Source: [Leptolyngbya] sp. PCC 7376
GTDB lineage: Bacteria; Cyanobacteriota; Cyanobacteriia; Cyanobacteriales; MRBY01
Length of the DNA: 64,000 bases
Assembly: GCF_000316605.1 (NCBI RefSeq)
Contig: NC_019683.1
Location: 2,650,036-2,714,035, forward strand
Direction: 5' to 3'
Shown: positions 4,496 through 49,209 of the stretch, piece after piece
Numbering within the stretch: the stretch's first letter is position 1
Layout: each line of letters begins with the position of its first letter
Made by a program: the position numbers and the translations under genes
Notes under the pieces: model-generated
What the model was told of the DNA's origin: nothing
What the model saw: only the letters and a program-made list of their open reading frames with translations
Databases searched by the model: none

Positions 4496-5040
4496 CTATA
4501 GAAATGGATACAAGGCTTAAGAAGTAGCTGTTACTGCACCCTGAGTCTTATTCCTTACTATGATTCTGTATCTATCCGGCCATCGCTATAGTTTTTGCCT
4601 CAATGCTTCTCGCTTCTGTTCATCCCTTTCCTGATACCCATAGGTCTTTTTTGCGAGTAAAACCTATCTTCTTCAACATTCTCGATATGGTGCGACGACT
4701 CACATCACCCGGCTACAACTCTACCATTTCTGCCTGGGTTTTATCTGGATGCTGTTGTACAAAGCTTTTGAATGCTTCCTAGTCTGTGATTTTGTGACCC
4801 GAGCCTTTCTGATACCCTGTTTTGGCGCTGTAAAACTTCCTGTTTGCTCTAGTCGTTGTATCCAGAGATAAAGGCTATTAAGGCCAAGACCGAACATTTC
4901 ACAGACATCTTTTTTCGGGATACCTAGTGCTACCGCATCAAGGACTTGACATCGTAGGTCATTACTATAAGCAGCTGGCATTTTTTACTTCACGCAACAA
5001 CTCCCATAATACTTCCTAAACCATTTGGCTATTGCTATAG
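4496..5040 (-). mobile_element. Internally deleted IS630-family remnant
   Basis: Imperfect terminal inverted repeats of about 29 bp both begin CTATAG, at 4496 and at 5040. Between them is only 545 bp, against roughly 1 kb for an intact copy. The minus strand holds the N-terminal helix-turn-helix part of a transposase (frame 4721-4981: MPAAYSNDLRCQVLDAVA, then MFGLGLNSLYLWIQRLE), followed by frameshifted traces of the linker (TRKKTYGYQERDE-like) and no DDE catalytic domain. It cannot transpose by itself. It could be mobilised in trans if a related copy is active. Confidence 0.75.
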
Positions 5041-5180
5041 ATAAAACTCCAAGCAAACTCTTGATTTATGGGAATTTCAGCCCAATTCCTTATCCAAAAC
5101 TGACGTTGTTTTAATACTGCTTGAAGTTTTCAAAAAAATCCTGTTACTTTGAGAAGATCATTTTAATACTTTACTAAATT

Positions 5181-6773
5181 TCAAGCTTTCTTAGCTGAAA
5201 ATTTGAATGTTTCTCCTTGTTCGCTACCCAAGCGGATATGGCTATTGGAAAGTAATAAAATTTCTTCTTGGTGGATGTTTTGCCAGTCTTGATTTGGTAG
5301 ACTAATTAATGTGCCAAACCGGGAGCGATCGCGGATAAAAAAGCCTTCTTCTCGTTGAATAATTTCGGCATGTTCTTTACTAACCCAGGGTTCCTCGATG
5401 GTGACATCATTTTCGGAGCGGCGACCAATGCGGATCAGTTTGCTACTGAATGTCCATTCTCGTTCTGGGTCATCACAGGAACTAAGAGTAAATGTTTGCG
5501 TTTTAATCGGTGTTGGTAAGCGCGTTGGCAATTCGGTAATGGATGACAACTTTGACAAAATCTGACCATCGAACTCTGGATGCATATAGAGGATAGGTAA
5601 TGTCCAAGCTGGCGAGTTGAATTTGAATTGCGCTAATAAATTCTGGCGGGCGATCGCCACAGATTCATCTACTGGTTTATGTTTGCAAAATGCTTGACTG
5701 AGACTCGTAATAAAGGCGATCGCTTCATCATCACTAATGGGGTCGCGCATCGCTAAAACTGACGGTAAACCATGATGAATCAGTACTTCCGTTAGGCTAC
5801 TGGTGGCGATCGCCTGATGATTTTGTTGGAGGGATTTGGCACCCCAACAGGAATTAAACACCGTTAACCGAATGCCGCTTTGGGTGAGGATTTGCGCCAA
5901 TTCTTTGCCGTTGAGTTTATCAGCATCGTTGAGAAAAATCTGGCCGCCATCCGCTGCGGGCTCGCCATGACCACTATAAAAAAAGAGCTGGTAATTTTTG
6001 CTAGAGAGAGTTTCCGCTAATTCGCTGGGAGTTGGCTGAATCAGAATATCGCCTTGCACTTGCCCAAAACTTTTTGTCTGCCAAATGTTTTGCAATCGTT
6101 CTGCTTCTGTTTTGAGATCGAGGCTATCATTGCCATTTTCGGGCGCACCTAAAACCAACAAAATATTTAGCGATCGCCCGGTGGATTGTAGATTTAAAGG
6201 CGCAACATCACCGATCGTGCGACTAAAGAAAACCTGAGGGTTAAGAGAAACTGCTTGCTTGCCCATTTCCTGCTGCATAATTTCCCACGGCAATGGCAAC
6301 AGATTTGGGTCACGCACATCAATCCGTAACCGCAACGCCTCTTTTTGACCCAATGCAACCCCTTCAGCCCGTGCAAAACTTTCGGCGATCGCCCCTTGAA
6401 ATAACCATTGCCACATCTGCACACCCAACCCTTGCATTAATCGTCCACTGATCGAAGCATTCGGATCTGGCACTAATTCTACAGACTGGACTTCACCAGT
6501 AATCGGATAGTGGGGCGTTTGATGAGGCGTAAAAATTGCCTGCCATGCCAACCAAATCCGACTTAATTCTTCATCCCATAAAATATCTTCTTTTTCCACA
6601 CCTCGCACAAATGGTGTTGCCGCAGCCCAAATCACAAAATGATGTTCTTCCGGCGAATTATTTAGGCGATCGCACACCACTTGTAGAGACGGGAAATCAG
6701 GAGGTTGAGACATCGACAATGAAAATTGAGACTGGGCGCTCTTCCAATTTATGTCGTTTAACAGCAGATTCAT
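5181..6773 (-). CDS. CHAT-domain (caspase-like) protein with C-terminal FHA domain
   Basis: Residues numbered from ATG 6773 (530 aa). The CHAT domain spans about 150-390. The caspase-like dyad is visible as His269 in FFYSGHGEP and Cys309 in LTVFNSCWGAK. After a short linker comes an FHA domain (about 430-530) with IRIGRRSENDV, VSKEHAEI and the following RDRSRFGT strand, which binds phosphothreonine peptides. This suggests a protease whose targeting depends on Ser/Thr phosphorylation. An upstream ATG at 6785 is possible, but GGAG six bases ahead of ATG 6773 favours the latter. The gene is divergent from groEL. No effector or target gene is adjacent. Confidence 0.85.
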   Translation of the reverse strand: MNLLLNDINWKSAQSQFSLSMSQPPDFPSLQVVCDRLNNSPEEHHFVIWAAATPFVRGVEKEDILWDEELSRIWLAWQAIFTPHQTPHYPITGEVQSVELVPDPNASISGRLMQGLGVQMWQWLFQGAIAESFARAEGVALGQKEALRLRIDVRDPNLLPLPWEIMQQEMGKQAVSLNPQVFFSRTIGDVAPLNLQSTGRSLNILLVLGAPENGNDSLDLKTEAERLQNIWQTKSFGQVQGDILIQPTPSELAETLSSKNYQLFFYSGHGEPAADGGQIFLNDADKLNGKELAQILTQSGIRLTVFNSCWGAKSLQQNHQAIATSSLTEVLIHHGLPSVLAMRDPISDDEAIAFITSLSQAFCKHKPVDESVAIARQNLLAQFKFNSPAWTLPILYMHPEFDGQILSKLSSITELPTRLPTPIKTQTFTLSSCDDPEREWTFSSKLIRIGRRSENDVTIEEPWVSKEHAEIIQREEGFFIRDRSRFGTLISLPNQDWQNIHQEEILLLSNSHIRLGSEQGETFKFSAKKA

Positions 6774-12334: not shown

Positions 12335-13429
12335 ATGTCAACTGTTCCACCAAATTCGTCACCTTTACGTAGTGTCCACACTCAAAATTTCGTTGATATT
12401 TTGCAGCAATGCGGCATTTCTCTAATTGTTTCGACCTATCAGGCCGGCAAACTAATTGTGGTGAGGGCAGAGGAAAAATCGCTCAATACTCACTTTCGAA
12501 TGTTTAAGCAACCGATGGGAGTCGCTGCTGATCGTGAAAAAATTGCCCTTGGTACTGCTTATGAGGTGTGGGAGTTTCGCAATGTCCCTGCGGTTACCAA
12601 GAAGCTTGACCCACCAGATCTTCATGATGCTTGTTATTTACCCCGCGATCGCCACGTTACTGGGGATATTGATATCCATGAGATGGCCTATTGCAACGAT
12701 GAGTTGTGGTTCATCAATACGCGCTTTTCTTGTTTATGCACTCTCGACCGCAAAAATAGTTTTGTGCCCCGCTGGCAACCGCCCTTTGTTTCGGCCTATG
12801 ATCTCGGCGATCGCTGCCATCTAAATGGTTTAGGGGTGAGGGATAATCAACCGCATTATGTGACAGCTTTAGGTGAAACAGATAGTCATCAAGGATGGCG
12901 CGAGAATAAGGCCCACGGTGGCATTTTGATGGACATCACCACCAACGAATTTTTAGCAAAAGGGTTATCGATGCCTCATTCGCCTCGTTGGTATCGTGAT
13001 CAACTGTGGGTGTTAGAGTCTGGTGAAGGGAGTCTTGCAACAGTTGATGTGAAAACCGGGAAATTAAACACCGTTGTGCAATTACCTGGTTTTACAAGGG
13101 GGATTGATTTCTGGGGTCCCTTAGCTTTTGTTGGTTTATCACAAGTGCGCGAAACGGCCGTGTTTAGTGGCATTCCCATCACCGAGAGACTAAATGAACG
13201 TATTTGCGGCGTTTGGGTCGTGAATATTGAAACAGCTCAGATTATCGCGTTTCTGAGGTTTGAGGATGCTGTTCAGGAAATTTTTGCGGTATCGGTGTTG
13301 CCCGGAATTCGTTTTCCTGAGGTGATTGAAGATAATGAAACGCTGCTCAGCAGTTCGTTTGTTTTGCCGGATGAGGCGATCGCCCGAGTGGATTTCAGCA
13401 CGCTTAAATCAAAACCCCAATCGACTTAA
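12335..13429 (+). CDS. TIGR03032 family protein
   Basis: The 364-aa protein matches the TIGR03032 family of beta-propeller-like proteins of unknown function, with the motifs ISLIVSTYQAGKLIVV, FKQPMGVA, IHEMAY, LWFINTRFSCL, HLNGLGV and the SMPHSPRWY signature. Family length and order are as expected. Function is unknown; some members sit beside TPR or glycosylation genes, which is not the case here. The ATG at 12335 lies 271 bases from the divergent adhesin gene. Confidence 0.85.
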   Translation: MSTVPPNSSPLRSVHTQNFVDILQQCGISLIVSTYQAGKLIVVRAEEKSLNTHFRMFKQPMGVAADREKIALGTAYEVWEFRNVPAVTKKLDPPDLHDACYLPRDRHVTGDIDIHEMAYCNDELWFINTRFSCLCTLDRKNSFVPRWQPPFVSAYDLGDRCHLNGLGVRDNQPHYVTALGETDSHQGWRENKAHGGILMDITTNEFLAKGLSMPHSPRWYRDQLWVLESGEGSLATVDVKTGKLNTVVQLPGFTRGIDFWGPLAFVGLSQVRETAVFSGIPITERLNERICGVWVVNIETAQIIAFLRFEDAVQEIFAVSVLPGIRFPEVIEDNETLLSSSFVLPDEAIARVDFSTLKSKPQST

Positions 13430-13529
13430 TTGCTTTTGAAGCGGCTTTATTGAGATACAGCTTTTAAGAGAAGGGCGATCGCCTCTCCACCTGATAATCA
13501 CCCTTACGCTAAGACTCAAAAATTAAACG

Positions 13530-14441
13530 CTATTTGAAAGGTGAAAATGGCGTGGTGTACGCATGATCAGAAGCGACAATCATCGTGCCAATACCATCAT
13601 TCGTGAAAATCTCCAGTAGCAACGCGTGGGGAATACGCCCATCAATAATGTGAGCTGCCTTAACACCTTGCGCTAGCGATCGCACACAACAAGAAACCTT
13701 CGGGATCATTCCGCCACCGACCACGCCAGAGTCGATCAGTTCGCGTGCCTTCTGTAAATTTACTCTGGGGATGAGGGTAGAAGGATCGTGATAGTCTTCC
13801 AAAATACCCGCTGTGTCCGTCAATAAAATTAATTTTTCTGCACCGAGGGCTGCTGCTAATTCTCCGGCCACAGTGTCTGCGTTGATATTGTGAGCTTGGC
13901 CATTTTCATCGGCTGCCACACTAGAAATTACTGGCACATAGCCATTATCGACGAGGGACTGAATCAGTTTGGTGTCGATGGCTGCGACTTCTCCCACAAA
14001 GCCAACGCCTTCTTTGCCAACAGGACGAGCTTGCACCATATTGCCGTCTTTGCCACAGAGACCAACGGCAGACGCACCTTCTTGGTTAATGAGGGAGACA
14101 ATTTCTTTATTGACGCGACCGACTAAGACCATTTCCACCACGTCCATGGTGTCAGCATCGGTGACTCGCAAGCCATCTTTAAATTGGGGTTCGATCTTGA
14201 GTTTACTGAGCCATGTATTGATTTCAGGGCCGCCGCCATGCACCACAACGGGACGGACGCCAATGCATGAGAGAAAGACGATATCGCGAATGACTTTATC
14301 TTTGAGCGTGCTGTCTTTCATCGCCGCGCCGCCGTATTTTACGACAACAGTTCGACCCGAGAATTGCTGCATATAAGGCAGGGCTTCGCTGAGGATACGG
14401 ACACGGGTGGCATCGGCTTCTCTGATGTATTCGCTTTCCAT
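13530..14441 (-). CDS. argB: Acetylglutamate kinase
   Basis: This enzyme phosphorylates N-acetyl-L-glutamate, the second step of arginine synthesis, and in cyanobacteria it is controlled by arginine and PII. The 303-aa protein has [25 protein letters not shown], the NINADTVAG motif and a C-terminal VGGGMIPKV segment. The N-terminal helix ([24 protein letters not shown]) that forms the arginine-sensitive hexamer is present. It lies upstream of aroK on the same strand, 119 bases apart. Confidence 0.97.
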
Positions 14442-38002: not shown

Positions 38003-38058
38003 CTATTCTGAAATGATTAATCAATCTATTAATCAATCGATTAATAGATTCAGAATGG
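38003..38058. repeat. Framed 12-bp iterated site C
   Basis: The outer frame is CTATTCTGAA/TTCAGAATGG. Inside are three ATTAAT cores at 12-base spacing (unit ATTAATCAATCT/G). It lies downstream of the minus-strand operon terminator and upstream of the YcxB-like gene. The rest of the 352-base gap 37776-38127 has no convincing gene. Confidence 0.75.
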
Positions 38059-38127: not shown

Positions 38128-38517
38128 TTATGCAGCAAGCTTATCTGCCTGTTCATCAACCGTCATAACCTCATTAATCTCATCTGCAATATCAGGGAAC
38201 CATTCACAGAGTTGATTAATATCATCTGCATCAAACCAGCTAGGCTCAATAACCTTAGTGACGACATAGTCATACCCATGATTCTTTAATTTCTCTTCAA
38301 TCCATAAGAAGATTTTACGAGTATTAATCTTAGGCTTTTTGGTACTTTGTGCAGCCTCAATAGGAGCATAAGGGTCTACTACTTTAGTTGTTGGTTTTGC
38401 ATTATTCTTCAAATCTGCATAAGCCAGCAATATGGCAGTAGAACCGACTCGAAAAGTAGTGTTTAAATTTGCGTATTTGTTGCCGTTTGTAGCTTCTGTA
38501 AATTGACGATTAGCCAT
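38128..38517 (-). CDS. Hypothetical element protein, 129 aa
   Basis: I do not recognise it. It starts MANRQFTEATNGNKYANLN and is acidic toward the C terminus (WFDADDINQLCEWFPDIADEINEVM). No TM segment is present. It is the last gene of the minus-strand operon. Confidence 0.65.
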   Translation of the reverse strand: MANRQFTEATNGNKYANLNTTFRVGSTAILLAYADLKNNAKPTTKVVDPYAPIEAAQSTKKPKINTRKIFLWIEEKLKNHGYDYVVTKVIEPSWFDADDINQLCEWFPDIADEINEVMTVDEQADKLAA

Positions 38518-38583
38518 GATGTATAAGTGTGTGTTTCTGTTGGGTGCAAAATTACTATATCCAATAGCTCAATAAGTGGCAAA

Positions 38584-38898
38584 TTAAGCTGACTGATATA
38601 GGGTAATGATTGAACTTCTTGCACCACTAATATCTAGGGCAGTTATGGGTAAAGACACATCTCTTAAATCGATAATTGATGGGTTTTTATTAACTCGATA
38701 AGTCTTGTCATACGCAACGTTTATCCCACCAATGTCTACCACTGGCTGAATAAAAATAGGTGCTATTGTTTTATACCCATCAAAGTGAGAGACATTAGCA
38801 AAAGTTAAAAACTGTACCTGTACATAATCGAACTCAACAGATACAGGTATTCTTTCTCCTGATTTTGCTTGAACTGTTGAAACTGGAATTAAAGTCAT
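38584..38898 (-). CDS. Hypothetical element protein, 104 aa, beta-rich
   Basis: I do not recognise it. The sequence alternates polar and hydrophobic residues throughout (VSVEFDYVQVQFLTFANVS, APIFIQPVVDIGGINVAYD), suggesting a small beta-sandwich. In this context I infer a possible minor structural protein. A hairpin-T terminator separates it from the gene upstream. Confidence 0.6.
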   Translation of the reverse strand: MTLIPVSTVQAKSGERIPVSVEFDYVQVQFLTFANVSHFDGYKTIAPIFIQPVVDIGGINVAYDKTYRVNKNPSIIDLRDVSLPITALDISGARSSIITLYQSA

Positions 38899-38911
38899 TA
38901 TCTTGCAATAG

Positions 38912-38931
38912 AAAAGGGGGCGTTAACCCCC
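38912..38931 (-). terminator. Internal terminator between 110-aa and 104-aa genes
   Basis: On the minus strand GGGGG-TTAACG-CCCCC is followed by TTTT. It lies in the gap between cotranscribed genes, so it probably reduces downstream expression rather than ending the operon. Confidence 0.65.
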
Positions 38932-38965
38932 TAAAAAACGTGGCTATTATCGTCAACAGAAGAAC

Positions 38966-39298
38966 CTAGTCACGGACTACAGTCACAGTCGCGGTATTGA
39001 TACGAATATCAATGTTGGGATTAAGCTCTTGGAATTGAGCTTTTGTTACTCGAACTTGGTCAATGGTAAAGTCTCCAAAGCCAAAGACCTGAGCATTGTT
39101 GTAAGCATCAGTATCTTCTGCCAAGTAACGATCTTCACCATTAGTATCAGGTGTCGTTTGAGAACCATCATCAACCCAAGCAGGATTCGGCACATCAGCC
39201 GAAACGACATCAAGGGTGGAGTTATCGGTATTCAGAACATAGTCGGGAGTTGTAGCCGCTTCGTCGCGGAAACCCTCAACAATCCAAGCATTAGCCAT
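38966..39298 (-). CDS. Hypothetical element protein, 110 aa, acidic
   Basis: The product starts MANAWIVEGFRDEAATTPDYV and is Asp/Thr/Asn-rich with no Cys. Its C-terminal half (FTIDQVRVTKAQFQEL, DIRINTATVTVV) looks like beta-strands. It has no signal peptide and no recognised family. Its position just ahead of a terminator suggests high expression, as for a structural protein, which is inference. Confidence 0.65.
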   Translation of the reverse strand: MANAWIVEGFRDEAATTPDYVLNTDNSTLDVVSADVPNPAWVDDGSQTTPDTNGEDRYLAEDTDAYNNAQVFGFGDFTIDQVRVTKAQFQELNPNIDIRINTATVTVVRD

Positions 39299-39354
39299 TG
39301 ATTAAACCTCAAGAAAAAGATGGGTAAACAGAGAGAAAACAAAGAAGGGAAAAC

Positions 39355-39756
39355 CTATGCGTAACGGTAAGAGCGCTTACGAGGTTGGCCGATTTTGGCA
39401 ATAGGGAAACCATTGTAAGTTTTACCCGCAAGGCCAGTAGCCGGGTCTACAGCTTCTTCTACCTTGTCACGGGGGATAAAGATTGCACCGCTTTGAGTGT
39501 TGGCGTTGCCTGTAACGGGGTGCTTGCCCTTGACATACTTAGCTACGAATACAAGCAACAGCATATTGTCAATTGCGTCGTCAGTGTTTACAGTAATTGC
39601 GCCTTCAGGGATGTCCCCTGTGATTTTGGTGTAACCGACAATCGAAGCCCAAGAATCATAGATTCCTTCTTTAAGAGAAATGAGATATTTTTGACCTTTC
39701 AACGTGAACTCATACAAAGAACGTTGATTTTTTGGGTTAGTACCAGCTTTAGCCAT
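39355..39756 (-). CDS. Hypothetical element protein, 133 aa
   Basis: Starts at ATG 39756 (MAKAGTNPKNQRSLYEFTLKG) rather than the upstream frame opening at 39795. Segments such as QKYLISLKEGIYDSWASIVGYTK and GAIFIPRDKVEEAVD suggest a compact alpha/beta domain. The C terminus is basic (QPRKRSYRYA), so nucleic-acid or membrane contact is possible. I know of no family for it. Confidence 0.65.
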   Translation of the reverse strand: MAKAGTNPKNQRSLYEFTLKGQKYLISLKEGIYDSWASIVGYTKITGDIPEGAITVNTDDAIDNMLLLVFVAKYVKGKHPVTGNANTQSGAIFIPRDKVEEAVDPATGLAGKTYNGFPIAKIGQPRKRSYRYA

Positions 39757-39866
39757 AGTGATTAAATCAGTTGTTTGACAACTACAACCTAGCAATCAAA
39801 AAAGCCTAAAATCACGAGCAATACCTTAAGGTTTAGGTTGAAAGGTTCGAGACTTTTTGAACTAGT

Positions 39867-40700
39867 CTAAATGCTCATTCTAGGGCGGTAAAGTAGTAGC
39901 TCTTCGACACCTGTATCTGCTCCGATAAACGTCGCTGAAACGAGATATACATAACCAATCACCTTCTTCTTTTTCCTACGGGTTGTCTTGCCGATAACCT
40001 TCACAGTTTCATCTTGAGCACGTGGGTTTATTTTTCTGCTCTCGTTTAAGCGCGTATCATCATAATCTCTACTGAAGCAGTAGCAAATATCTTTGACAAA
40101 CTCGATTGCTTGATTCTGGTTTGCTGCCTGTATCTGTGGCATCTGCAAGCCTTGTTCAGGGTCGTAATAAGAGTATTTATTATTGCCACATAGGTACAAG
40201 TCCGTTCTACTTTTTGGTTCTGGAAACCGTTGTTTTAGTCTATTTTTAATCGCCGTAAGCTCGGCTATTGTTACGTCTGTTGCGTCCTTCAATAAAGGGA
40301 CAGATACCTTCATTCTTTTGGGGTGATTTCTTCTGGCTTTTCTTTGTAAGTTACTAGGTTCTTGGAACTTCAGAACGACTTGAGCTTGTAAGTTGTTTCT
40401 ACGCAATTTAAAGTCATCCTTTGGTATTCCATAGAACTTACTCATTAGCTCTTCACTGAGCTTGCCAGTCATTAAGCCATAAAAAATCATCTTGCCTACA
40501 TTGAGCAAAAGACTCTCATCCACATCAATCAAGCAAGCTCTACGAAGTGCTCCTGTAGGAGTAGTGATATCAAGTTCCTCTATCTCACCATTGGGGTCAA
40601 AGAATTCCCTCATTTCGGGGTTTAGAGACTTGGCGGCAACCTGTAAAAAATGCGTTTTAGGATTGTAATTTTCTGGTGCTGGCTGGTTAGTTTCTGGCAT
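39867..40700 (-). CDS. Hypothetical element protein, 277 aa
   Basis: The first and largest gene of the minus-strand operon. It is soluble, with a basic middle (LQRKARRNHPKRMKV) and a second basic patch (GKTTRRKKKKVIGYVYLVS), and no Walker motif is visible. It ends in a hydrophobic beta segment (VYLVSATFIGADTGVEELLLY). DNA or RNA binding is possible. No family is recognised. Its ATG directly abuts framed site D, which probably contains its promoter or operator. Confidence 0.65.
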   Translation of the reverse strand: MPETNQPAPENYNPKTHFLQVAAKSLNPEMREFFDPNGEIEELDITTPTGALRRACLIDVDESLLLNVGKMIFYGLMTGKLSEELMSKFYGIPKDDFKLRRNNLQAQVVLKFQEPSNLQRKARRNHPKRMKVSVPLLKDATDVTIAELTAIKNRLKQRFPEPKSRTDLYLCGNNKYSYYDPEQGLQMPQIQAANQNQAIEFVKDICYCFSRDYDDTRLNESRKINPRAQDETVKVIGKTTRRKKKKVIGYVYLVSATFIGADTGVEELLLYRPRMSI

Positions 40701-40755
40701 GATTCTGAATTACTTAACTAATTACTTAACTGATTACTTAACTGTTTCAAGATAG
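40701..40755. repeat. Framed 12-bp iterated site D, in the divergent promoter
   Basis: The frame is GATTCTGAA/GTTTCAAGATAG. Inside are three copies of ATTACTTAACT(A/G) at a 12-base period. It begins one base before the ATG of the 277-aa gene (minus) and ends 57 bases before the ATG of the plus operon. It is therefore the only control region between the two element operons. Confidence 0.8.
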
Positions 40756-40812
40756 AGGTAGACGTTGTCTTAGAAAGTGGATATCTTTGTACTGATTCTA
40801 TCAGTTTAAATT

Positions 40813-41232
40813 ATGACAATTCAGAACATAGCTTCAGTCTTATTCCCTGCAATCACCTTCACTTACGATGATGTAGACGGCAACATTACAGGGGTTACTT
40901 TAGATACAACCCACGCAAGTATTACCCAATCATGGACAGGGTTAGGGAACTTAGCCCATAACGATGAATCGGTATTGGTAGCACTGATTAGAGAGTTATT
41001 TTCTCAGTTCAAAAATAAGCTTACTAATCTTGATTGCCCTGTGTTCTCTGATGAGAATGCGGAGTTCTTTGATGCACAAGGATTCACTGAAAGAGATAGT
41101 GGAACAACTGATAATGATGGTAATCCTATTACTGAGTTACAGAAGTTCTTGAAACTATCTTTTGTACTCTTCTTCAAGTACGACCCTGCCACTGAATTTA
41201 ATTCCTCTAGTGCGGTGAATGATAATGATTAA
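40813..41232 (+). CDS. Hypothetical element protein, 139 aa
   Basis: First gene of the plus operon. It starts MTIQNIASVLFPAITFTYDD and has Thr/Asp-rich beta-like segments (GNITGVTLDTTHASITQSW) then a helix-rich middle (VLVALIRELFSQFKNKL). Acidic C terminus. Unrecognised. It overlaps the next gene by 14 bases, so coupling is likely. Confidence 0.65.
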   Translation: MTIQNIASVLFPAITFTYDDVDGNITGVTLDTTHASITQSWTGLGNLAHNDESVLVALIRELFSQFKNKLTNLDCPVFSDENAEFFDAQGFTERDSGTTDNDGNPITELQKFLKLSFVLFFKYDPATEFNSSSAVNDND

Positions 41233-41482
41233 TACTGATTTTATTGCATTGTTTGGCAGTAATTCAGGAGTAGAAGTAGGGGTCATTGTTGCTGTAGTGG
41301 CTATCTTTCTACCTTTGGCGTTAAAAGCCTCTAAAGATATGCAAAAAGCTGCACGGGAAATGGGGCGATTCGATGCAGAAGTAGCAGGTATGAAAGAGGA
41401 CTTAAGAGAGATAAAAGAATCACATCAATCGATATTCCAGTTTCTTTTAAATAACTCTCAATCATTCCGTGATAGTAGATGA
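41219..41482 (+). CDS. Small single-TM element protein, 87 aa
   Basis: One TM helix (VEVGVIVAVVAIFLPLALKA) lies near residues 15-36, followed by an amphipathic, probably coiled-coil tail (MGRFDAEVAGMKEDLREIKESHQ). The layout resembles holin-like or phage-membrane proteins and small DUF-type spanins, but I assign none. It overlaps its neighbours by 14 and 4 bases. Confidence 0.7.
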   Translation: MIMINTDFIALFGSNSGVEVGVIVAVVAIFLPLALKASKDMQKAAREMGRFDAEVAGMKEDLREIKESHQSIFQFLLNNSQSFRDSR

Positions 41483-42375
41483 GTAGACGACTATCTATTG
41501 ATGGGGAAACTTTTATGGGGTCAAAAGAGATTGACCCTGTTAATCCTTATTCCCTACAATCCACGAATACCCGTATTCTTTGGGGAACAGGGGAAAATAC
41601 CCAAGGGACGCTTGAAGCTTCCAAGGAAATAGCTAATGCGGAAAAGGTCTGTGGGGTTAGCTATAGGAAACAAACAACTGGAGAGACTCAATCAGTAGAG
41701 GATGCGGTGAGCTTCCAATTGTCCCCAGACAAGACCCTAAAAACGTTCCTGATGCCATCCTCATGTCAAGGCATTGTAGAGGCGGAATCCTATGGCTATG
41801 TCTTAGGCAATAACTACAGCTTTTCCTACACCTATGCAGGGAGTCAGTATGGGACTAATAGATGGTTCACTTTCATTACTGAAGGGGATACAACCAAGGC
41901 TTTTACCATCGACTATGACCGTTTCCTAGGAGCGGCGAACCGTCCGAGTACCTGCCCAGCAAAGCTTAATTTCTACAACGGAACATTCCCCATCGATTTT
42001 GACAAAAGAACTCAGACATTACACTCCCACAATTATGGCAATATGCCAGCCAACCCACAGTATCAAGAGTTCCCTGTGTGGGAGTTCTTTAATGCCAGTG
42101 GTGCAAGAGTCTTGTATGAGCACGACGTACAAGGAACCCCGGTTTCAGAGGCGAAAATCTCAATATCTTATGTGGACGGGACAACAGAAGACTACCCCCT
42201 TAATTCTTGCCCTGAATGGGTTCAAATCGGGGGTTGTGTTGTGAGGGTCAATTATGCGGATGGTACAACCTATGACCTGCCTCCCAATGACACTTGCCCA
42301 ACTGTCGAACTGGTCGAAGAGGAACTATGCCAAAAGGTCTGTAATTTAGCCAATCAAATAATAGGGAAATTATGA
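41479..42375 (+). CDS. Hypothetical element protein, 298 aa, beta-rich with C-terminal repeats
   Basis: A 298-residue protein with beta-rich, aromatic-rich middle (SYTYAGSQYGTNRWFTFI) and two related C-terminal modules: ISYVDGTTEDYPLNSCPEW and VRVNYADGTTYDLPPNDTCP. The repeated V(D/N)YxDGTT(x)DxP(L/P)N pattern with a paired Cys suggests a receptor-binding or surface-exposed domain. No signal peptide. It is cotranslated with genes on both sides through ATGA overlaps. A virion or adhesion role is inference. Confidence 0.68.
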   Translation: MSRRLSIDGETFMGSKEIDPVNPYSLQSTNTRILWGTGENTQGTLEASKEIANAEKVCGVSYRKQTTGETQSVEDAVSFQLSPDKTLKTFLMPSSCQGIVEAESYGYVLGNNYSFSYTYAGSQYGTNRWFTFITEGDTTKAFTIDYDRFLGAANRPSTCPAKLNFYNGTFPIDFDKRTQTLHSHNYGNMPANPQYQEFPVWEFFNASGARVLYEHDVQGTPVSEAKISISYVDGTTEDYPLNSCPEWVQIGGCVVRVNYADGTTYDLPPNDTCPTVELVEEELCQKVCNLANQIIGKL

Positions 42376-43817
42376 GTTGTAATTGTAGTGAATTCTCCGG
42401 AAAACTTACCCTGATCAACAGCAAGATTGATGCCTTATTGAAAGAGAATACAGCGTTAAAAACAAAGCTTAAAAAGAAGGCTGATTTCTCCCAGTTGAAT
42501 AGAGTTGAATCTAACATCAATAGTCGCAACAATCCTTTCTTCGAGAAGGTCGATAATGGGTTAGATATTCTAGGGCAAAGGATTAAAGACCTTGTAATCA
42601 AAGATAATCAAGACTTAGAAAAGCAATTTAAGAGAGAGGCGGCCTATGCAACGAAATCGGATATTGCCCGGCTAGAACGTCGATTGTCGAGTGTTGAAGC
42701 ATTTATTAGAGAGTCGGAAAAGGATAAAGAAAGCGGTCTGTTTGCAACCAAAGCTGAATTAGAAAAGCTAAGAAGAGAAGCAGCAACAAAAGATTATGTC
42801 GACCAAAAAGATAATGCCCTAAAAAGGTCATTAGAGAAACTGATTGACAATGCAGAAGACGATATAAATGGACTACGAAAGGAATTGTCAGCAGAGGTGA
42901 GGGAGAGAAAACGGTTAATAAATCAGATTAAGTCCACTGCTGAATCGGCAAAAACGACGGCTGAAAAAGCCTTAGAGGAAGCAAGAAAGAAGAAGGAAGC
43001 AGTTGATAATTTTGCCAGAACCCAGATAGCGAAACTGGAAGCTAAGGTTAGCGCTTTGGCATTCAAGGTAGCAGCGAATACCGCCAAGATAGCTGGATTA
43101 GCAGCGGCTGTTGCTTTAATCAAGAAAACCCTAGCAGGAGTTAGTCTAGTACTGGCGAAATTAACGCCTCTACTGGCATTAGTTGGAACGATTGTTTCCG
43201 TCTTTGGAGCAGGTTTTTCTATTGCAAGTTTCTATCAAACAAGCAATCGCATCAATAAGCTAGAAGCTAAGGTACTTTCATTAGGTAATGAGATATCCAA
43301 AATACTTGGAAAATTCATCACTCCACTAGTCGCAAGAGTCCGTAGATTAGAGAATCAAGATAATGTTACAGACCAAGAATTATCACGTGGCTTAGCAAGT
43401 TTAGGGGCATCTCTAAATAGTCGATTAAATCAAATTTCTGGTGTTGCGAATTTAGCTCAAGCAAAAGCAGATGCTAATGCTCTAAAAGTAAACATAATCA
43501 ACGGAATTGTAGGGGCAACATCTGCAATATTCACAGCAAAGATAATCAACACTGTTGCAAATAGATTCCCCAACATTGGGAGGCAACCCGTGGTTAATAA
43601 TAACAACACTACTAATATCACCAATGTCACCAATAACTATGACCAAAGAAAGGTAATTAATAACACCACTACTCAGAATACAAACATTGATTATGGTCGT
43701 ATTGAATCTATCAATAGAAAGTATTCAACGAGTTCTACCCAAATGACCCAAGCAGTCACTAATGCAACATCGAAGAATAACAGTAGCAATCACTTGATTA
43801 CAACCGTATTCAAGTGA
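42372..43817 (+). CDS. Long coiled-coil protein with hydrophobic core and Asn-rich tail, 481 aa
   Basis: Coiled coil spans about residues 1-215 (heptads such as LERRLSSVEAFIRESEKDKE and ALKRSLEKLIDNAEDDING). A membrane-like segment lies near residue 265-300 (LAGVSLVLAKLTPLLALVGT, then VSVFGAGFSIASF). A second coiled coil follows, then an Asn/Thr-rich stretch (NNNNTTNITNVTNNYDQ) near 410. It looks like a tail-fibre, tape-measure or membrane-puncturing protein of a virus, but no family can be named. ATGA overlaps on both sides. Confidence 0.68.
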   Translation: MSCNCSEFSGKLTLINSKIDALLKENTALKTKLKKKADFSQLNRVESNINSRNNPFFEKVDNGLDILGQRIKDLVIKDNQDLEKQFKREAAYATKSDIARLERRLSSVEAFIRESEKDKESGLFATKAELEKLRREAATKDYVDQKDNALKRSLEKLIDNAEDDINGLRKELSAEVRERKRLINQIKSTAESAKTTAEKALEEARKKKEAVDNFARTQIAKLEAKVSALAFKVAANTAKIAGLAAAVALIKKTLAGVSLVLAKLTPLLALVGTIVSVFGAGFSIASFYQTSNRINKLEAKVLSLGNEISKILGKFITPLVARVRRLENQDNVTDQELSRGLASLGASLNSRLNQISGVANLAQAKADANALKVNIINGIVGATSAIFTAKIINTVANRFPNIGRQPVVNNNNTTNITNVTNNYDQRKVINNTTTQNTNIDYGRIESINRKYSTSSTQMTQAVTNATSKNNSSNHLITTVFK

Positions 43818-44116
43818 TTGCTAATAGTGCAGTAAAACCTACTCAACAAATTGCCTCATCTACTCAAAGGGATGTTAGAGCAAATGGTAGTAAATTATCA
43901 GGTATTAGAGGCAGTATTGCAGCGGTACAAGCCAACGTTTCAGCCCAAGCAGCATCAACGAGAACATGGATAACAAATGCGACTCAACCACTAAGAGATG
44001 GACAGTTATTTATCCAGAAACAAGCCGCAGCTATTCACCGTAATAGTTTTGTACAGGCAGCATTAAATACGATGAACACAGCTTTCCTTGTACATAATGC
44101 AGCTCGATTAGGTTAG
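43814..44116 (+). CDS. Hypothetical element protein, 100 aa, open to an amber codon
   Basis: Ala/Ser/Thr-rich protein (SSTQRDVRANGSKLSG, AVQANVSAQAASTRTWITNA) with no TM segment. It stops at TAG 44114-44116. The same frame stays open for another 217 codons to 44770, so the two parts may once have been one protein of about 318 residues. Confidence 0.55.
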   Translation: MIANSAVKPTQQIASSTQRDVRANGSKLSGIRGSIAAVQANVSAQAASTRTWITNATQPLRDGQLFIQKQAAAIHRNSFVQAALNTMNTAFLVHNAARLG

Positions 44117-44770
44117 GATGTAGCTCAATTTGCAGGAATAGCATTAGATGAAGTACTTGGTTTAGCTGGGATTGAATTCAAAGACCAAGATGGTAGTCCA
44201 ACGACTATCAATTCGATTATTGGGACAAAGGTCAGAGATATGATTGATGCGGTCATTCCTGAGGATATGCAGAACCGAGCAAAAGAAGAGTGGTTACGAG
44301 GATCTACCATCATTTCTTCTGGTGCTCAAATTTATTGGGGTCTACGCAGTATGGGTGATGAACTCCAATCAGTGACTGAGATTACGAATGACCGTCTAGG
44401 TTTATGGATGAACACAGCTCGAAATGAAGGTCTAGTTAGTGATGAGGGTAAGCATCATCAACCACCGATTAGTACTAGTTCACCTTATGGCAGATACAAT
44501 CAATTCCTTGAGAAGGTTAATCGAGGGTCTGAAACCTTTGAGAACTCAGTAAATAACGCTGATGATGTGTTTTCAGGGGTAAGTTACATTGCCAGTGTTC
44601 CGTTATCAGTTCAAGGTGAGTTAGAGAATATCCAAGCCCACAGAGCTGTGATGGTTAATGCTGTAGCTCCACAACAGGAATCAGTTGCAGAGTTTGAAGC
44701 TGAACAATTATTGGAGAATGAAGCACCTGATAGCTTGGTGACTGCACAAGACCATTTAGGTATTGATTGA
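44117..44770 (+). CDS. Downstream half of the same frame (hypothetical, from ATG 44240)
   Basis: The frame continues after the TAG (DVAQFAGIALDEVLGLAGIEF) without a usable start until ATG 44240, giving 176 aa. It contains RAKEEWLRGSTIISSGAQIYWGL and an acidic tail. Translation could come from amber readthrough, from reinitiation at 44240, or not at all. It converges on the coiled-coil/TM gene at 44880. Confidence 0.5.
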   Translation, partial: DVAQFAGIALDEVLGLAGIEFKDQDGSPTTINSIIGTKVRDMIDAVIPEDMQNRAKEEWLRGSTIISSGAQIYWGLRSMGDELQSVTEITNDRLGLWMNTARNEGLVSDEGKHHQPPISTSSPYGRYNQFLEKVNRGSETFENSVNNADDVFSGVSYIASVPLSVQGELENIQAHRAVMVNAVAPQQESVAEFEAEQLLENEAPDSLVTAQDHLGID

Positions 44771-44772
44771 CG

Positions 44773-44816
44773 CTATTCTGAAATGAGTACTCGATTTAGT
44801 ACTAAATTCAAGATAG
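44773..44816. repeat. Framed 12-bp iterated site B
   Basis: CTATTCTGAA and TTCAAGATAG frame two AGTACT cores 12 bases apart. The sequence that follows (CCTAGTGAGTG, then AAAAACGCTGAAA) is shared with the reverse complement of site A's flank, so A and B are inverted copies of one module of about 105 bp. It lies between two convergent genes. Confidence 0.75.
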
Positions 44817-44879: not shown

Positions 44880-45680
44880 TTATGACTCCAAAAAGATTGA
44901 GACAGAACCCGGAGAGGGCGTATAAACAGTTTGAAGATTAAATCTACGAGAGGAGTAAGATTTCCTCAAAACACTTTGTAAGGCAAAGGCAACATCTCTT
45001 TCGTTTTCAGCAAAATAGCGAATTTGGTCAGAAGAGGCTTTATCTTGCTGGGGAAGAACTTGGATTTCAGTCTCAACACCTGCTTCTTCTAGTGAAAGTT
45101 TGATGTCTTCGGCTTCCACTTTTTGATCTGGTTTACCCTCGTTGTAGAAAATTTGTATTTTATATTCACTGACAATTTTCACCAAAGAAGCTAACTCAGT
45201 ATCTACTCTTGGGTTTAGCAAGGGGGTATTGTCTTCTAATGTAGTTTGTATCTCCGAGTTGACTGATGCTGCTTGCTGAACAGCTTCTTGGTTAGCAGTT
45301 ATCTGAGCTTCAAGAGTTGTGTCTTGACTTTCTCGCAACTTTTTATTTGTATTTTCAAGCTCCTGCTTAAGGGTGTCAATTTGCTCTACTGCTTTAATTA
45401 AATCGTTGTCAGTTTCTTCCAGTTGTTTTTCCCACTTGAAAATACCAAAATCGCCTTCCACTAAGCCAGCTTCTATAAAAATACGATTAAGTGCTTTTGG
45501 TCTCAATAACAGCATGCAGAGAAGAATGAATACAAATCCGTCTCGGATAAAGTTAAGGCAACTCTGACCAAGCTCCAATGTATCTTTGAGCTGAACTTGA
45601 TAACTCTTGTCGTCTTGATTTTCTTTTTCAGTAGGAGTTTCCATGATTTTCAATCTAGATTCAGATGTCAAGCAACTCAT
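44880..45680 (-). CDS. TM/coiled-coil protein with C-terminal LytR_C-like domain, 266 aa
   Basis: A TM helix (GFVFILLCMLLLRP) at about 48-62 is followed by a coiled coil (about 88-125, DLIKAVEQIDTLKQELENTN). The C-terminal alpha/beta domain reads KIQIFYNEGKPDQKVEAEDIK, then QVLPQQ, and resembles small periplasmic LytR_C or SPOR-like modules, which is weak. Start ATG 45680 or ATG 45644. Function unknown. Confidence 0.6.
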   Translation of the reverse strand: MSCLTSESRLKIMETPTEKENQDDKSYQVQLKDTLELGQSCLNFIRDGFVFILLCMLLLRPKALNRIFIEAGLVEGDFGIFKWEKQLEETDNDLIKAVEQIDTLKQELENTNKKLRESQDTTLEAQITANQEAVQQAASVNSEIQTTLEDNTPLLNPRVDTELASLVKIVSEYKIQIFYNEGKPDQKVEAEDIKLSLEEAGVETEIQVLPQQDKASSDQIRYFAENERDVAFALQSVLRKSYSSRRFNLQTVYTPSPGSVSIFLES

Positions 45681-45867: not shown

Positions 45868-45923
45868 CTATCCTGAAACAATTAACCAATTAATTAATTA
45901 ATCAATTAAATATTCTGAGATAG
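45868..45923. repeat. Framed 12-bp iterated site E
   Basis: CTATCCTGAA and TTCTGAGATAG frame three AATTAA cores at 12-base spacing. It lies about 190 bases upstream of the 266-aa minus-strand gene and may hold its promoter. The 46245-45924 interval downstream otherwise contains only the terminator at 46160. Confidence 0.7.
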
Positions 45924-47030: not shown

Positions 47031-47186
47031 CTACAGAGTAAATTCATCCTGACTAATCACTCCAGCAACACCCACAGGAACAACTACAACGAACAATCTC
47101 TCAAGAGAGAAGTCACCTGTAGTTGATAGGCCAATACCTGCAAGTAAACCTAGGAAAAATAAAACATATTTCTTGTTCTCACTCAT
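47031..47186 (-). CDS. Small membrane protein, 51 aa, overlapping the integrase stop
   Basis: ATG 47186 overlaps the integrase TAA (TAATG), which suggests coupled translation. The product has two short hydrophobic helices (KYVLFFLGLLAGIGLSTTG and LFVVVVPVGVAGVI). No family known. The next 230 bases to the left contain no convincing gene. Confidence 0.55.
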   Translation of the reverse strand: MSENKKYVLFFLGLLAGIGLSTTGDFSLERLFVVVVPVGVAGVISQDEFTL

Positions 47187-47491
47187 TACTTGTACTCCTG
47201 GATAAAGCTGTCGTATTGCTCTAAGTTCAACTCATCATCATCAAGCCACCAATCATTAGAGACAAGGTATGTTTTGGTAATCATCTTGATAGATGTTCCA
47301 CACTGTTGAGCGATGATGTAAATAGGAGTGTTTTTCTTGATTTCATTAGTAATAAATGTATGTCTCATGCAATAGGGCTTAAGGTATCTACGAACCTGCT
47401 TAAGCTCCACAAGTTCATTCAATATAGGTCTCCATAATCGTTTAGTAAGGTTGCCCCAATTGATGAAAATACCTGTAGGAGAAGGGAATAA

Positions 47492-48286
47492 GAGAGTTTC
47501 AAGAGAGTAATGTTAAACGCCAATTGCGCAGTAGCTCAATACTTCCATTCACTCTAAATTTCGCAAACAGTGCCATGCTCAAGTCCACCATGTGTTTTGA
47601 TTTAGAGACGACCTTCGTCCTGCGATGAAACCGAGCAAACCAATGGCGATTGTCTGAGTTGTTTCTCTCAATTGCTATTGTCTCTTTCTTGCTAATGGCA
47701 TGAAAAGCATCTGGGTGATTCTCTAATAGCTGTTGATAGGGTTTCCAATTATCGGTGCAATAGACAGTGATTTGTCATTGCGATAACCGCTCTAGTAAAT
47801 GACCTAAAGTTCGACTATCACGACTTCCCAATTCCCAGTCAATGAGTCGCCCAGTATTACGGTCATATGCTTTCCAGACCCAAAGTTTGTTTTTTTCTCT
47901 TGGATAAAATGCCATAGCTCATCTAGCTCCACCACGACAGCAGACTCAGGAGTGGGCTTTTCATAATTGGCTTCACCGAAATCTCTTACCCAATTGAGCA
48001 CTGATTGAGCTGATACACCGAGAATCTTGGCTGTCGCATTCATGGACATACCACTCATATACATCAATACAGCTTCTAATTTCATCCAGAGAGGCTTGCC
48101 CCGCTCTTTAGAAAAGCTTGTAAATTGATAATTGCACTGCTTACACTTAAATCGTTGACGATTTTTAGCGAATCCACTTTTGATGATGTCTTGAGCATTA
48201 CATTGGGGACAGTGAATTGTCATAGCGAGACTTCCAAGGAAACGACTCACTCCATTTTGCTATAGCATTACTTACTTGAAACTCTC
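47492..48286 (-). mobile_element. IS1-family insertion sequence inside the integrase gene
   Basis: The 795-bp element has inverted ends (GAGAGTTTCAAG at the left, its complement at the right). It is flanked by an 8-base target duplication: GGGAATAA at 47484 and GGGAATAT at 48287, one mismatch. Confidence 0.85.
47499..48223 (-). pseudogene. IS1-family transposase (InsA/InsB frameshift type), nonsense-mutated
   Basis: The first frame starts MTIHCPQCNAQDIIKSG (ATG 48223) with two CxxC pairs. The second frame follows a -1 shift at GAGAAAAAAACAAAC (an A-AAA-AAC slippery heptamer as in IS1) and carries the InsB catalytic part: AYDRNTGRLIDWELGSRD and TDNWKPYQQLL. A TGA at 47775-47777 interrupts the second frame (RLSQ-stop-QITVYC), so this copy is probably inactive. 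Confidence 0.75.
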
Positions 48287-49209
48287 GGGAATATTAATGC
48301 GCTATCTTCACTGACATCCACCCCTTCAGATAGAGAAAAAAGAAAATCCTTTAGTCCTTCATTTACTCTGTATTTTCGAGTGACAATCTTATCCTTCTTT
48401 CCTTGTTTTGTGTTGCGTCTAAGCTGACATGCTGTATAGGTTTTGTTGATATTAATCAGTCCTTTAATGTTGTCAAAATTTCCCCATGTGAGCGGTACTG
48501 CTTCCTCAGGTCTTAAGCCAGTCATGAAAAGAAACTGATATAGGTCACGATAGACGTTGCCGTCTCCTATTCGCCTCAATATTCTGTCTTTCTCAGTTGC
48601 AGTAAATCTTCCTTTGTTCTGCTGTTTCTTTGGCTTAAGCAATCCTCGAATAACAGGGTATGGATTATGAGGGACTTTTCCTAGTTTGACCCAATGATTC
48701 ACGCAAGCACTGATTACCTGTAAATCCCTATCTATAGTACTTTCCGCATATCTACTTCTATAGGCTTCGAGAAACCGATGGGAGTTATCCAGCTTCCGCA
48801 ATTCCTTTGGGAGGGATGCAATAAAGTCCCTTACACGCTTGTGATTTTGTAGGGTTGTATGGGCGTAATCATGCTCTAGTTTTTCCCACTCACAAAACAA
48901 AAAGTTTAAGTCTTTATATTGCTCATCAATAAGTTGTCGTTCAATTGATTTTCTAGGGTCGTAATAATCCCTTGTGTGATAAATACTCTGAGATAAGTCT
49001 CTATTGATTTCTATAGCAATGGATTGAGCGGCAACTAAATCCGTAACAGTGAGTGAGTGTTGTTTGTCGAAAGCACGCCATCGGATTCGATAACTTTGTT
49101 TGTTCGCATCAGATAGATAAACAGAAATGCTACCGATTTTGAATATTGATTTGTCCATTTCAAGATTGTTTGAATTTAGGGATGAATTTCAGCCTCAAAT
49201 CTGACGCAA

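Follow-up and report, generated by a model that had tools for sequence, protein, structure and literature searches.

This work concerns a block of genes located at positions 38128–44770 of a stretch of 64,000 nucleotides (hereafter the window; NC_019683.1, positions 2,650,036 to 2,714,035) from the chromosome of the cyanobacterium [Leptolyngbya] sp. PCC 7376. All coordinates given without a locus label are positions within this window. From a comparison covering 49 distinct loci (L084 was left out as a duplicate of L023, and L029 as the same record as L060), the block almost certainly belongs to a mobile element of which the window copy is a relic, and its products may well form the particle of a virus-like element.

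As stated in the initial annotation, two operons diverge from one shared control region. It measures 112 bp and lies between the minus-strand genes m5 to m1 and the plus-strand genes p1 to p4 (Table 1; F and c numbers designate protein families). The presence of a protein with a single transmembrane segment (p2) and of a repeat-bearing protein with paired cysteines (p3) was also confirmed; one transmembrane segment is predicted in 3/3 p2 proteins. Other features hold in part. The minus-strand proteins had been described as acidic, which is correct for m1–m3 (isoelectric point, pI, 4.0–5.6) but not for m4 and m5. The ATGA overlaps of 4 bp attributed to the plus operon are found at p2/p3 and p3/p4, whereas p1 and p2 overlap by 14 bp. 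The 481-residue coiled coil exists as an open reading frame (ORF), but it is the front of an interrupted F0 gene and not a whole protein. A terminator-like hairpin is present between m3 and m2; nevertheless, the evidence for it is weak, because the scan detected 10 such sites versus 5.9 ± 2.8 in shuffled sequences. Likewise, the block has the extent originally assigned to it, but the element continues past 44770 to an integrase located downstream.

The absence of recognised families held: all 10 window proteins scanned stayed below the cut-offs of Pfam (best E 0.0018) and NCBIfam (best E 0.0065), and their best match in PHROGs (E 0.0029) was to a family of unknown function, with no match to terminase, portal, capsid or tail families. 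A search of Rfam at the gathering threshold returned tRNA alone. The protein m5 belongs to the F1 family, used here as the marker: it matches the family with hhalign (100%, 1.2e-60, with a family alignment that includes the three query rows), and independent pairwise matches were obtained in other genera, down to 6.7e-13. The gene m4, which in the ORF list begins earlier, at a TTG codon (146 residues), is the counterpart of F3/c10 by position and promoter and a candidate for the main particle protein; hhalign detected no sequence homology between m4 and F3. On position alone, m2 is a possible counterpart of F2 (the hhalign comparison was not significant) and p1 is the counterpart of F8; hhalign detected no homology for p1 and F8, nor for p3 and c6.

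Table 1. Features of the block and of the adjoining part of the element in the window, with identities to the copies L015 and L016 of the same chromosome
Feature	Positions	Strand	Description	Identity or relatives
m1	38128–38517	-	129 aa, acidic	No relatives among compared loci
m2	38584–38898	-	104 aa	47% to L015, 35% to L016
Terminator-like hairpin between m3 and m2	38932–38915	-	Weak against shuffles	
m3	38966–39298	-	110 aa, acidic	72% to L015, 46% to L016
m4	39355–39756	-	133 aa, basic, pI 9.5	49.6% to L015, 34.7% to L016
F1–m4 gap	39757–39866	-	Conserved promoter layout: palindrome ACCTTAAGGT, centre 33 nt upstream of TGCTAGGTT	
m5 (F1)	39867–40700	-	277 aa, marker protein, pI 9.3	
Divergent control region	40701–40812		112 bp, three tandem 12-bp repeats (ATTACTTAACTR)	
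p1	40813–41232	+	139 aa, acidic, opens plus operon	93.5% to L015
p2	41219–41482	+	87 aa, one predicted transmembrane segment, then charged coiled-coil-like tail	81.6% to L015, 29.8% to L016
p3	41479–42375	+	298 aa, exchangeable middle, Cys-paired C-terminus, repeat	97% to L015
F0, interrupted	42372–44770	+	Fibre-like gene; p4 of 481 aa, last ORF 44240–44770	
Element integrase, split	48268–49158 and 47186–47368 (span 47186–49158)	-		
Insertion sequence (IS) inside integrase	47491–48228	-	IS type judged by eye	99% to copy adjoining L016 element

Two lesions mark the window copy. The gene p4 ends at 43817 and the homologous frame resumes from 43814; because the overlap is a 4-bp GTGA, a coupled start may be possible at 43814–43817. 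The F0 frame contains an additional in-frame TAG at 44114–44116, and p4 together with the ORFs of 100 and 176 residues that come after it on the plus strand correspond to a single ORF of 788 residues in L015. An intact integrase lies beside L016 and matches XerD (E 7e-4); the two pieces in the window share 50% and 63% identity with its two ends, and the larger piece alone gave no match in the Protein Data Bank (PDB). No replicase was seen beside this copy. With F0 interrupted and an IS inserted in the integrase, the window copy is most likely the relic of an integrated element, and it can probably no longer make a particle; we take these lesions to be real rather than sequencing errors. Three 35-nt repeats (80%), possibly att-like or regulatory, are located at 38003–38037, 44773–44807 and 45868–45902, and the first two flank the block immediately, one on each side. 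A membrane coiled-coil protein of 266 residues (44880–45680), with no relatives in the compared loci, occupies the place where L015 holds a replicase.

Copies, relatives and mobility of the element

The same closed chromosome has two more copies of F1 (L015 and L016), with much of the surrounding gene order kept; given these syntenic copies in its own genome and those in other genomes, the block is more than a chance arrangement. Identity between L015 and the window amounts to 82–97% for p1 to p3 and the N-terminal 417 residues of p4, 55–59% for the end of F0, and 47–72% for the proteins m5–m2; because the identity is uneven along the block, it looks like a recombinant mosaic. The third copy is adjoined by an NB-ARC/TPR protein of the STAND type (L016:12232–14898), possibly a defence gene.

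A search with p3 revealed two further elements, A and B, arranged head to head at 4.098–4.13 Mb. Each carries a replicase, an HNH protein, a long F1, an F0 relative, p3 and four small proteins; the replicase of A combines DUF3854 with VapE, and that of B is 66% identical to it over 417 residues. Between them lies one putative recombinase, without a Pfam or PDB match, that was recognised by eye and via relatives in L027 and L018. In L120 (9757–16001), the putative recombinase between the two head-to-head elements has 353 residues, and the inverted arms are 84–97% identical. Elements A and B are nearly the same in the long F1 (99.8%), F0 (96.6%) and the three small proteins compared (85–98%); however, their p3 proteins are only 33% identical: conservation is confined to the N-terminal ~36 residues and the Cys-rich end, and the part in between has been replaced. 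In element A this middle part of p3 is in turn 61% identical over 212 residues to that of the window p3, while BLAST detected no match between the F1 and F0 of element A and those of the window. From this exchange of one domain between different cores, as occurs in receptor-binding proteins, we infer that p3 may be a recognition protein with a swappable domain. The F1 profile itself does not match the long F1 of element A; the two are linked via L027, L051 and L124, where the extra N-terminal part is fused to an F1 core.

In other cyanobacteria the order of the genes is conserved: variable proteins are followed by F0 (about 500–940 residues), F1, a conserved promoter-like intergenic site and small beta proteins, and small proteins with one transmembrane segment close many blocks. 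Co-occurrence, which the initial annotation had put forward as a check, was indeed observed: 40 of the 48 loci with room to tell have F0 near F1, and the same number have F3/c10/m4; for F2 the count is 39 of 45. In several of the loci counted as misses, a large ORF occupies the expected place but fell under the clustering threshold. The C-terminal third of F0 is conserved and its front is variable, with coiled coils and collagen-like or Pro-Thr repeats; hydrophobic stretches are also present, and 5 of 18 F0 members matched PHROG tail-fibre families, apparently through the collagen-like repeats. A Cys pair is found at the start of several F0 proteins and another one ends p3/c6, through which p3/c6 may dock on F0. 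By a simple hydropathy rule, whose single positive host control was marginal (2.41 versus a threshold of 2.2), an N-terminal export signal was detected in none of the F0 (0/37), F1 (0/50), F3 (0/28), c10 (0/10), F2 (0/41), F8 (0/31) and c6 (0/17) proteins.

The gap after F1 measures 69–175 nt in the loci kept for the promoter count, from which gaps outside 60–180 nt, duplicates and one partial gap (L088) were dropped. A palindrome (arms ≥4) is centred 33–36 nt before TGYTA in 21 of the 46 distinct gaps, including those of the window, L015 and L016; this count is inflated and is not to be read as a probability, because the spacing was chosen post hoc (a window of 38–46 nt scored 0, and that of 33–36 nt was picked after inspection of the data) and the sequences are related. 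In dinucleotide shuffles this layout appeared in at most 2 gaps, and the best of any 4-wide window reached at most 3 gaps (arms ≥4) or 6 (arms of 3); the pattern is absent from 24 of the 46 gaps even with arms of 3. Judging from the sequence, this promoter-like site would tie m4 to F3 by position and regulation. In many Nostoc-type blocks a second motif (TTTACATAAAAGTGGAACATTTACATAA and variants) precedes the opening gene, irrespective of its identity. A piece of at most 50 nt of one F1–F3 gap (L072:10842–10891) matches six other genomes of the same family with 84–94% identity, which may mean that the promoter is conserved more strongly than the genes.

With respect to distribution, an even sample of 386 genomes from the phylum was searched with the F1 profile; 27 of them, the own genome counted, have a relative, and five of these lie outside the order of the host. 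A single-sequence search found F1 in 11 of 100 related genomes, the own genome included, and in none of the 5 other genomes of the genus. When a Nostoc-type profile was run as a pattern scan on a collection of 84,980 species genomes, it picked up 35 loci, all of them cyanobacterial by title. DNA matches to one Nostoc block are present in 104 of the 217 genomes of one family (E ≤0.01), some of them short fragments only; for two further blocks the counts are 58 and 70 of these 217 genomes (E 1e-5). This family is taken as Nostocaceae, because it includes a member that is identical to the query from Nostoc punctiforme.

The block is present in chromosomes, where plasmid-type replicases or tyrosine recombinases are often close by, and on five circular carriers of 15.6–37 kb; complete carriers are mostly of 15.6–20.8 kb, with one of 37 kb. 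They are CP019638 (15.6 kb, with ParA/ParB and an integrase annotated), CP019637 (37 kb, with ParB annotated), L027 (18.5 kb, with a terminal overlap of 141 bp), and CP064893 from Tolypothrix and NC_019743 from Allocoleopsis (20.8 kb each), both retrieved by a search with element A's long F1. A family check of 25 proteins from the last two (11 and 14 of the 30 annotated in each) revealed relatives of F0, F1 and the small recombinase in both, and of F3 and F2 in NC_019743, where the extra N-terminal part of the long F1 is a separate gene. The circular form is thus known from relatives and not from the window copy. In a comparison of two Tolypothrix strains with 99.98% average nucleotide identity, PCC 7601 and PCC 7712, CP064893 genes (exonuclease, HAD, integrase) are listed as unique to PCC 7601 (PMC9679502). 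The 15.6-kb plasmid pHT582-2 carries a protein of 1664 residues with a MACPF/perforin domain (L028:9827–14821), and the block of pMIC7113.08 is adjoined by a malectin carbohydrate-binding protein and a response regulator-FHA protein (L125:12553–13101 and 13103–13879).

Replicase profiles match 18 of the 49 stretches and recombinase profiles 23, fragments counted, with a union of 36 obtained by hand; these counts may be underestimates, because many stretches stop at contig ends, and some of the matches may belong to neighbours. The DUF3854 replicase matches are clear in L023 (5.7e-26) and L120 (1e-44), and the small recombinase c8 matches PF00589. One of the three recombinase seed clusters, INT33, was judged a recombinase by eye, and the L120 protein that resembles its members has no Pfam or PDB match. 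In L093, inverted copies (75–96%) of the promoter and first genes (472–1734 and 4780–6043) flank a c8 tyrosine recombinase, possibly a phase-variation switch; a c8 relative in L066 weakly matches the NCBIfam model of tyrosine-type DNA invertases (E 6e-6, below the cut-off). The element in L015 sits in a stretch of 12.9 kb whose counterpart in genome G005 measures 3.5 kb, the exact ends not being found; for the window, the one flank protein used to look for an empty site is not conserved in the genus. One of the DNA matches in the family taken as Nostocaceae is a spacer in an array of clustered regularly interspaced short palindromic repeats (CRISPR) of genome G526; it matches F3 of L078 in 38/40 nt and that of L079 in 36/40; it is the only one of the 22 spacers of that stretch with a match in 1.18 Mb of loci plus the window.

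Virus hallmarks and possible functions of the block

The initial annotation compared the block to a virion or transfer module. This is the right kind of reading, given the conserved unit, the circular replicons and the CRISPR spacer, while the formation of a particle is what we infer. We consider it fairly probable that the block codes for the particle of a virus-like element, so far apparently undescribed, that exists in cyanobacteria as a plasmid or integrated in the chromosome. The particle encoded by the operons would be extracellular. In many cases the element would be replicated by the DUF3854/VapE primase-helicase or by a DnaB-type helicase, and the tyrosine recombinase would act in integration or inversion; the domains of these proteins are present, and their activities are presumed from them. 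The block would be transcribed as two units, the second from the promoter-like site before m4/F3; because this unit starts there, m4/F3 would be the likely main particle protein. F0 could serve as a fibre or spike whose stalk (coiled-coil, collagen-like or Pro-Thr) varies and whose C-terminal third is conserved; p3/c6 would sit on it via its Cys-bearing end and carry the swappable recognition domain, and F1 could be an assembly or connector protein. As the main proteins have no export signals, assembly would take place in the cytoplasm, and lysis would release the particle. The more specific proposal of a virus lineage without detectable kin, i.e., temperate plasmid-viruses with an F3/m4 coat, an F1 connector, a swappable fibre-recognition pair of F0 and p3/c6, and no conserved known motor, is tentative, and we place it somewhat short of probable. 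Such a lineage would have been overlooked because it has no recognised hallmark gene.

Several results weigh against a virus. No relative of F1 (single sequence and profile) or F0 (profile) was found in IMG/VR, and none in INPHARED by tblastn with two F1 members, the long F1 and F3. Neither terminase nor portal nor capsid was detected among the scanned proteins, i.e., the 10 window proteins, 34 F1 members and 10 proteins of L120, L124 and L125, a set that covers part of the carrier proteins. Four stretches only (L123:9131–10453, L021:6356–7522, L068:497–1747 and L124:13323–14513) hold HerA/FtsK-like ATPases, which are related to one another and in two cases match HerA weakly, so no conserved packaging motor was found. 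Models of relatives of the window proteins, made with AF2 for F1 (pLDDT 84.1) and F3 (83.8), gave no capsid match in the fold searches. Collagen and coiled-coil repeats are also found in surface proteins, m2–m4 and p1–p3 are matched to the Nostoc genes by position only, and the lack of export signals comes from one simple rule with one marginal control. The CRISPR spacer shows one past encounter with the block, that is, invasion and not a virion, and it cannot tell a virus from a plasmid.

The remaining matches are few. One protein of NC_019743 weakly matches a PHROG minor-tail family (E 9e-4). The 34 F1 members gave only weak PHROG matches of unknown function, phrog_1254 being matched by 6 of them (best E 0.0095), and no significant relation to tail proteins. 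The profile search of PDB sequences returned nothing for F1 and one chain at E 0.57 for F3. With Foldseek, the F1 model matched nothing in the PDB under E 0.1; from viruses, two proteins reached E ≤1e-3: A0A510E869, an unnamed protein of 443 residues (E 1.5e-4, TM-score 0.35), and a protein of Gordonia phage GMA6 (E 1e-3). The second lead was rejected: the corresponding protein, identified by length and phage only, has 324 residues, lies beside the portal and is called an RNA ligase by PHROGs; because hhalign gave nil for it against F1, no portal neighbourhood is claimed for F1. The F3 model had no PDB or viral fold match (best Z 3.5). Residues 92–260 of F1 weakly resemble the 2H phosphoesterase/LigT fold (Z 5.1, root mean square deviation 3.9, 103 aligned); with a Z under 8, this may reflect perhaps a common arrangement only. 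The matches to metabolic folds that, according to the initial annotation, would speak against its reading did not occur beyond this resemblance. Counted in favour of a particle, along with the missing export signals, the fibre-like F0, the swapped p3 middle and the small proteins with one transmembrane segment, are a C39 peptidase that adjoins the L019 block and a weak Tlde1-like match (E 0.003, under the cut-off) beside that of L021. No description of this element family was found in the open-access PMC literature.

The chief rival is that the block encodes a non-virion structure of the plasmid itself, a surface adhesin or an apparatus for cell-cell transfer, that helps the plasmid to spread with no packaging of DNA. 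The partition proteins of CP019638 (ParA/ParB) and CP019637 (ParB), the plasmid-type DUF3854 replicases and the missing capsid, terminase and conserved motor suit this explanation, and a fibre with a recognition protein would also serve for cell contact. However, the main families carry no export signal, and the four named plasmid carriers were classed as non-mobilizable by MOB-suite, although no search aimed at relaxases or secretion systems was made; we regard this explanation as unlikely. A satellite that makes fibres or tail-like parts and borrows the capsid and packaging of a helper phage is less likely still. P4-like satellites are small and have VapE-type replicases, as do the elements described here; the lack of capsid and terminase matches, the tape-measure-like aspect of F0 (coiled coil and hydrophobic stretches) and the weak minor-tail match in NC_019743 are all compatible with it. 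On the other hand, the structural-looking share of the element is large, which is not usual in satellites, and F1 lacks a significant PHROG relation to tail proteins.

The occurrence of the block with different replicases and recombinases, and the p3 middles swapped between cores, could also be explained if it were cargo on unrelated mobile elements, i.e., a host-fitness operon or a tailocin-like weapon. A CRISPR spacer against it, together with broken and fragmentary copies as expected of parasites, makes this quite improbable. Finally, ordinary chromosomal genes of the host, with housekeeping or metabolic roles, would account for the chromosomal location of the window copy and for the 2H phosphoesterase resemblance of F1; nevertheless, such genes would hardly be patchy in the phylum, undetected in the five other genomes of the genus searched, multi-copy and plasmid-borne, with no Pfam or NCBIfam family above cut-off, and we give this explanation almost no credence.

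If the particle is real, cyanobacteria hold a common virus-like lineage that was missed by marker-based catalogues: DNA matches, some of them short fragments only, are present in almost half of the genomes of one family, yet neither IMG/VR nor INPHARED returned a relative of the marker proteins. Unknown families of coat and receptor-binding proteins would be added, many genes annotated as hypothetical on small plasmids of cyanobacteria would be accounted for, and gene transfer in filamentous nitrogen-fixing species would become accessible to experiment; the swapping of p3 and the recombinase-flanked inverted copies make host-range switching testable.

Comparison with known systems

Integrative phages of the Inoviridae type, which are marked by a small exported coat protein and a Zot/pI ATPase, resemble the element in that they are small and integrated, have few structural genes and include a small protein with one transmembrane segment. 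In contrast, the main structural families of the element are larger and have no export signals, and ATPases occur in four stretches only. Membrane phages of the tectivirus and corticovirus kind are small and have a collagen-like spike stalk and a HerA/FtsK-like ATPase. Small size, a collagen-like stalk and an occasional ATPase of this type are found here as well; however, a double-jelly-roll capsid was not recognised in the two models made (F1 and F3). The likeness of F1 to the 2H phosphoesterases is weak, and the HxT/S pair of these enzymes is not conserved in the F1 alignments.

Cyanobacterial plasmids of the CyRepA type have a replicase that contains DUF3854 (PMC10079941), as do the relatives of the window element. 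What differs is that DUF3854 is linked to a VapE-like domain in the elements described here, and the available part of that account does not include this structural block. The closest kind is the phage-plasmid. The phage-plasmids described from glacial habitats (PMC4490671) and from Microcystis (PMC12510456) carry terminase, tail or capsid-like genes. Like them, the element has a circular plasmid state, ParA/ParB in some carriers, an integrase and structural-looking genes of its own; unlike them, its scanned proteins gave one weak minor-tail match and fibre matches through collagen repeats, without the defining genes of tailed phages. Should particles be found, it would represent a new lineage.

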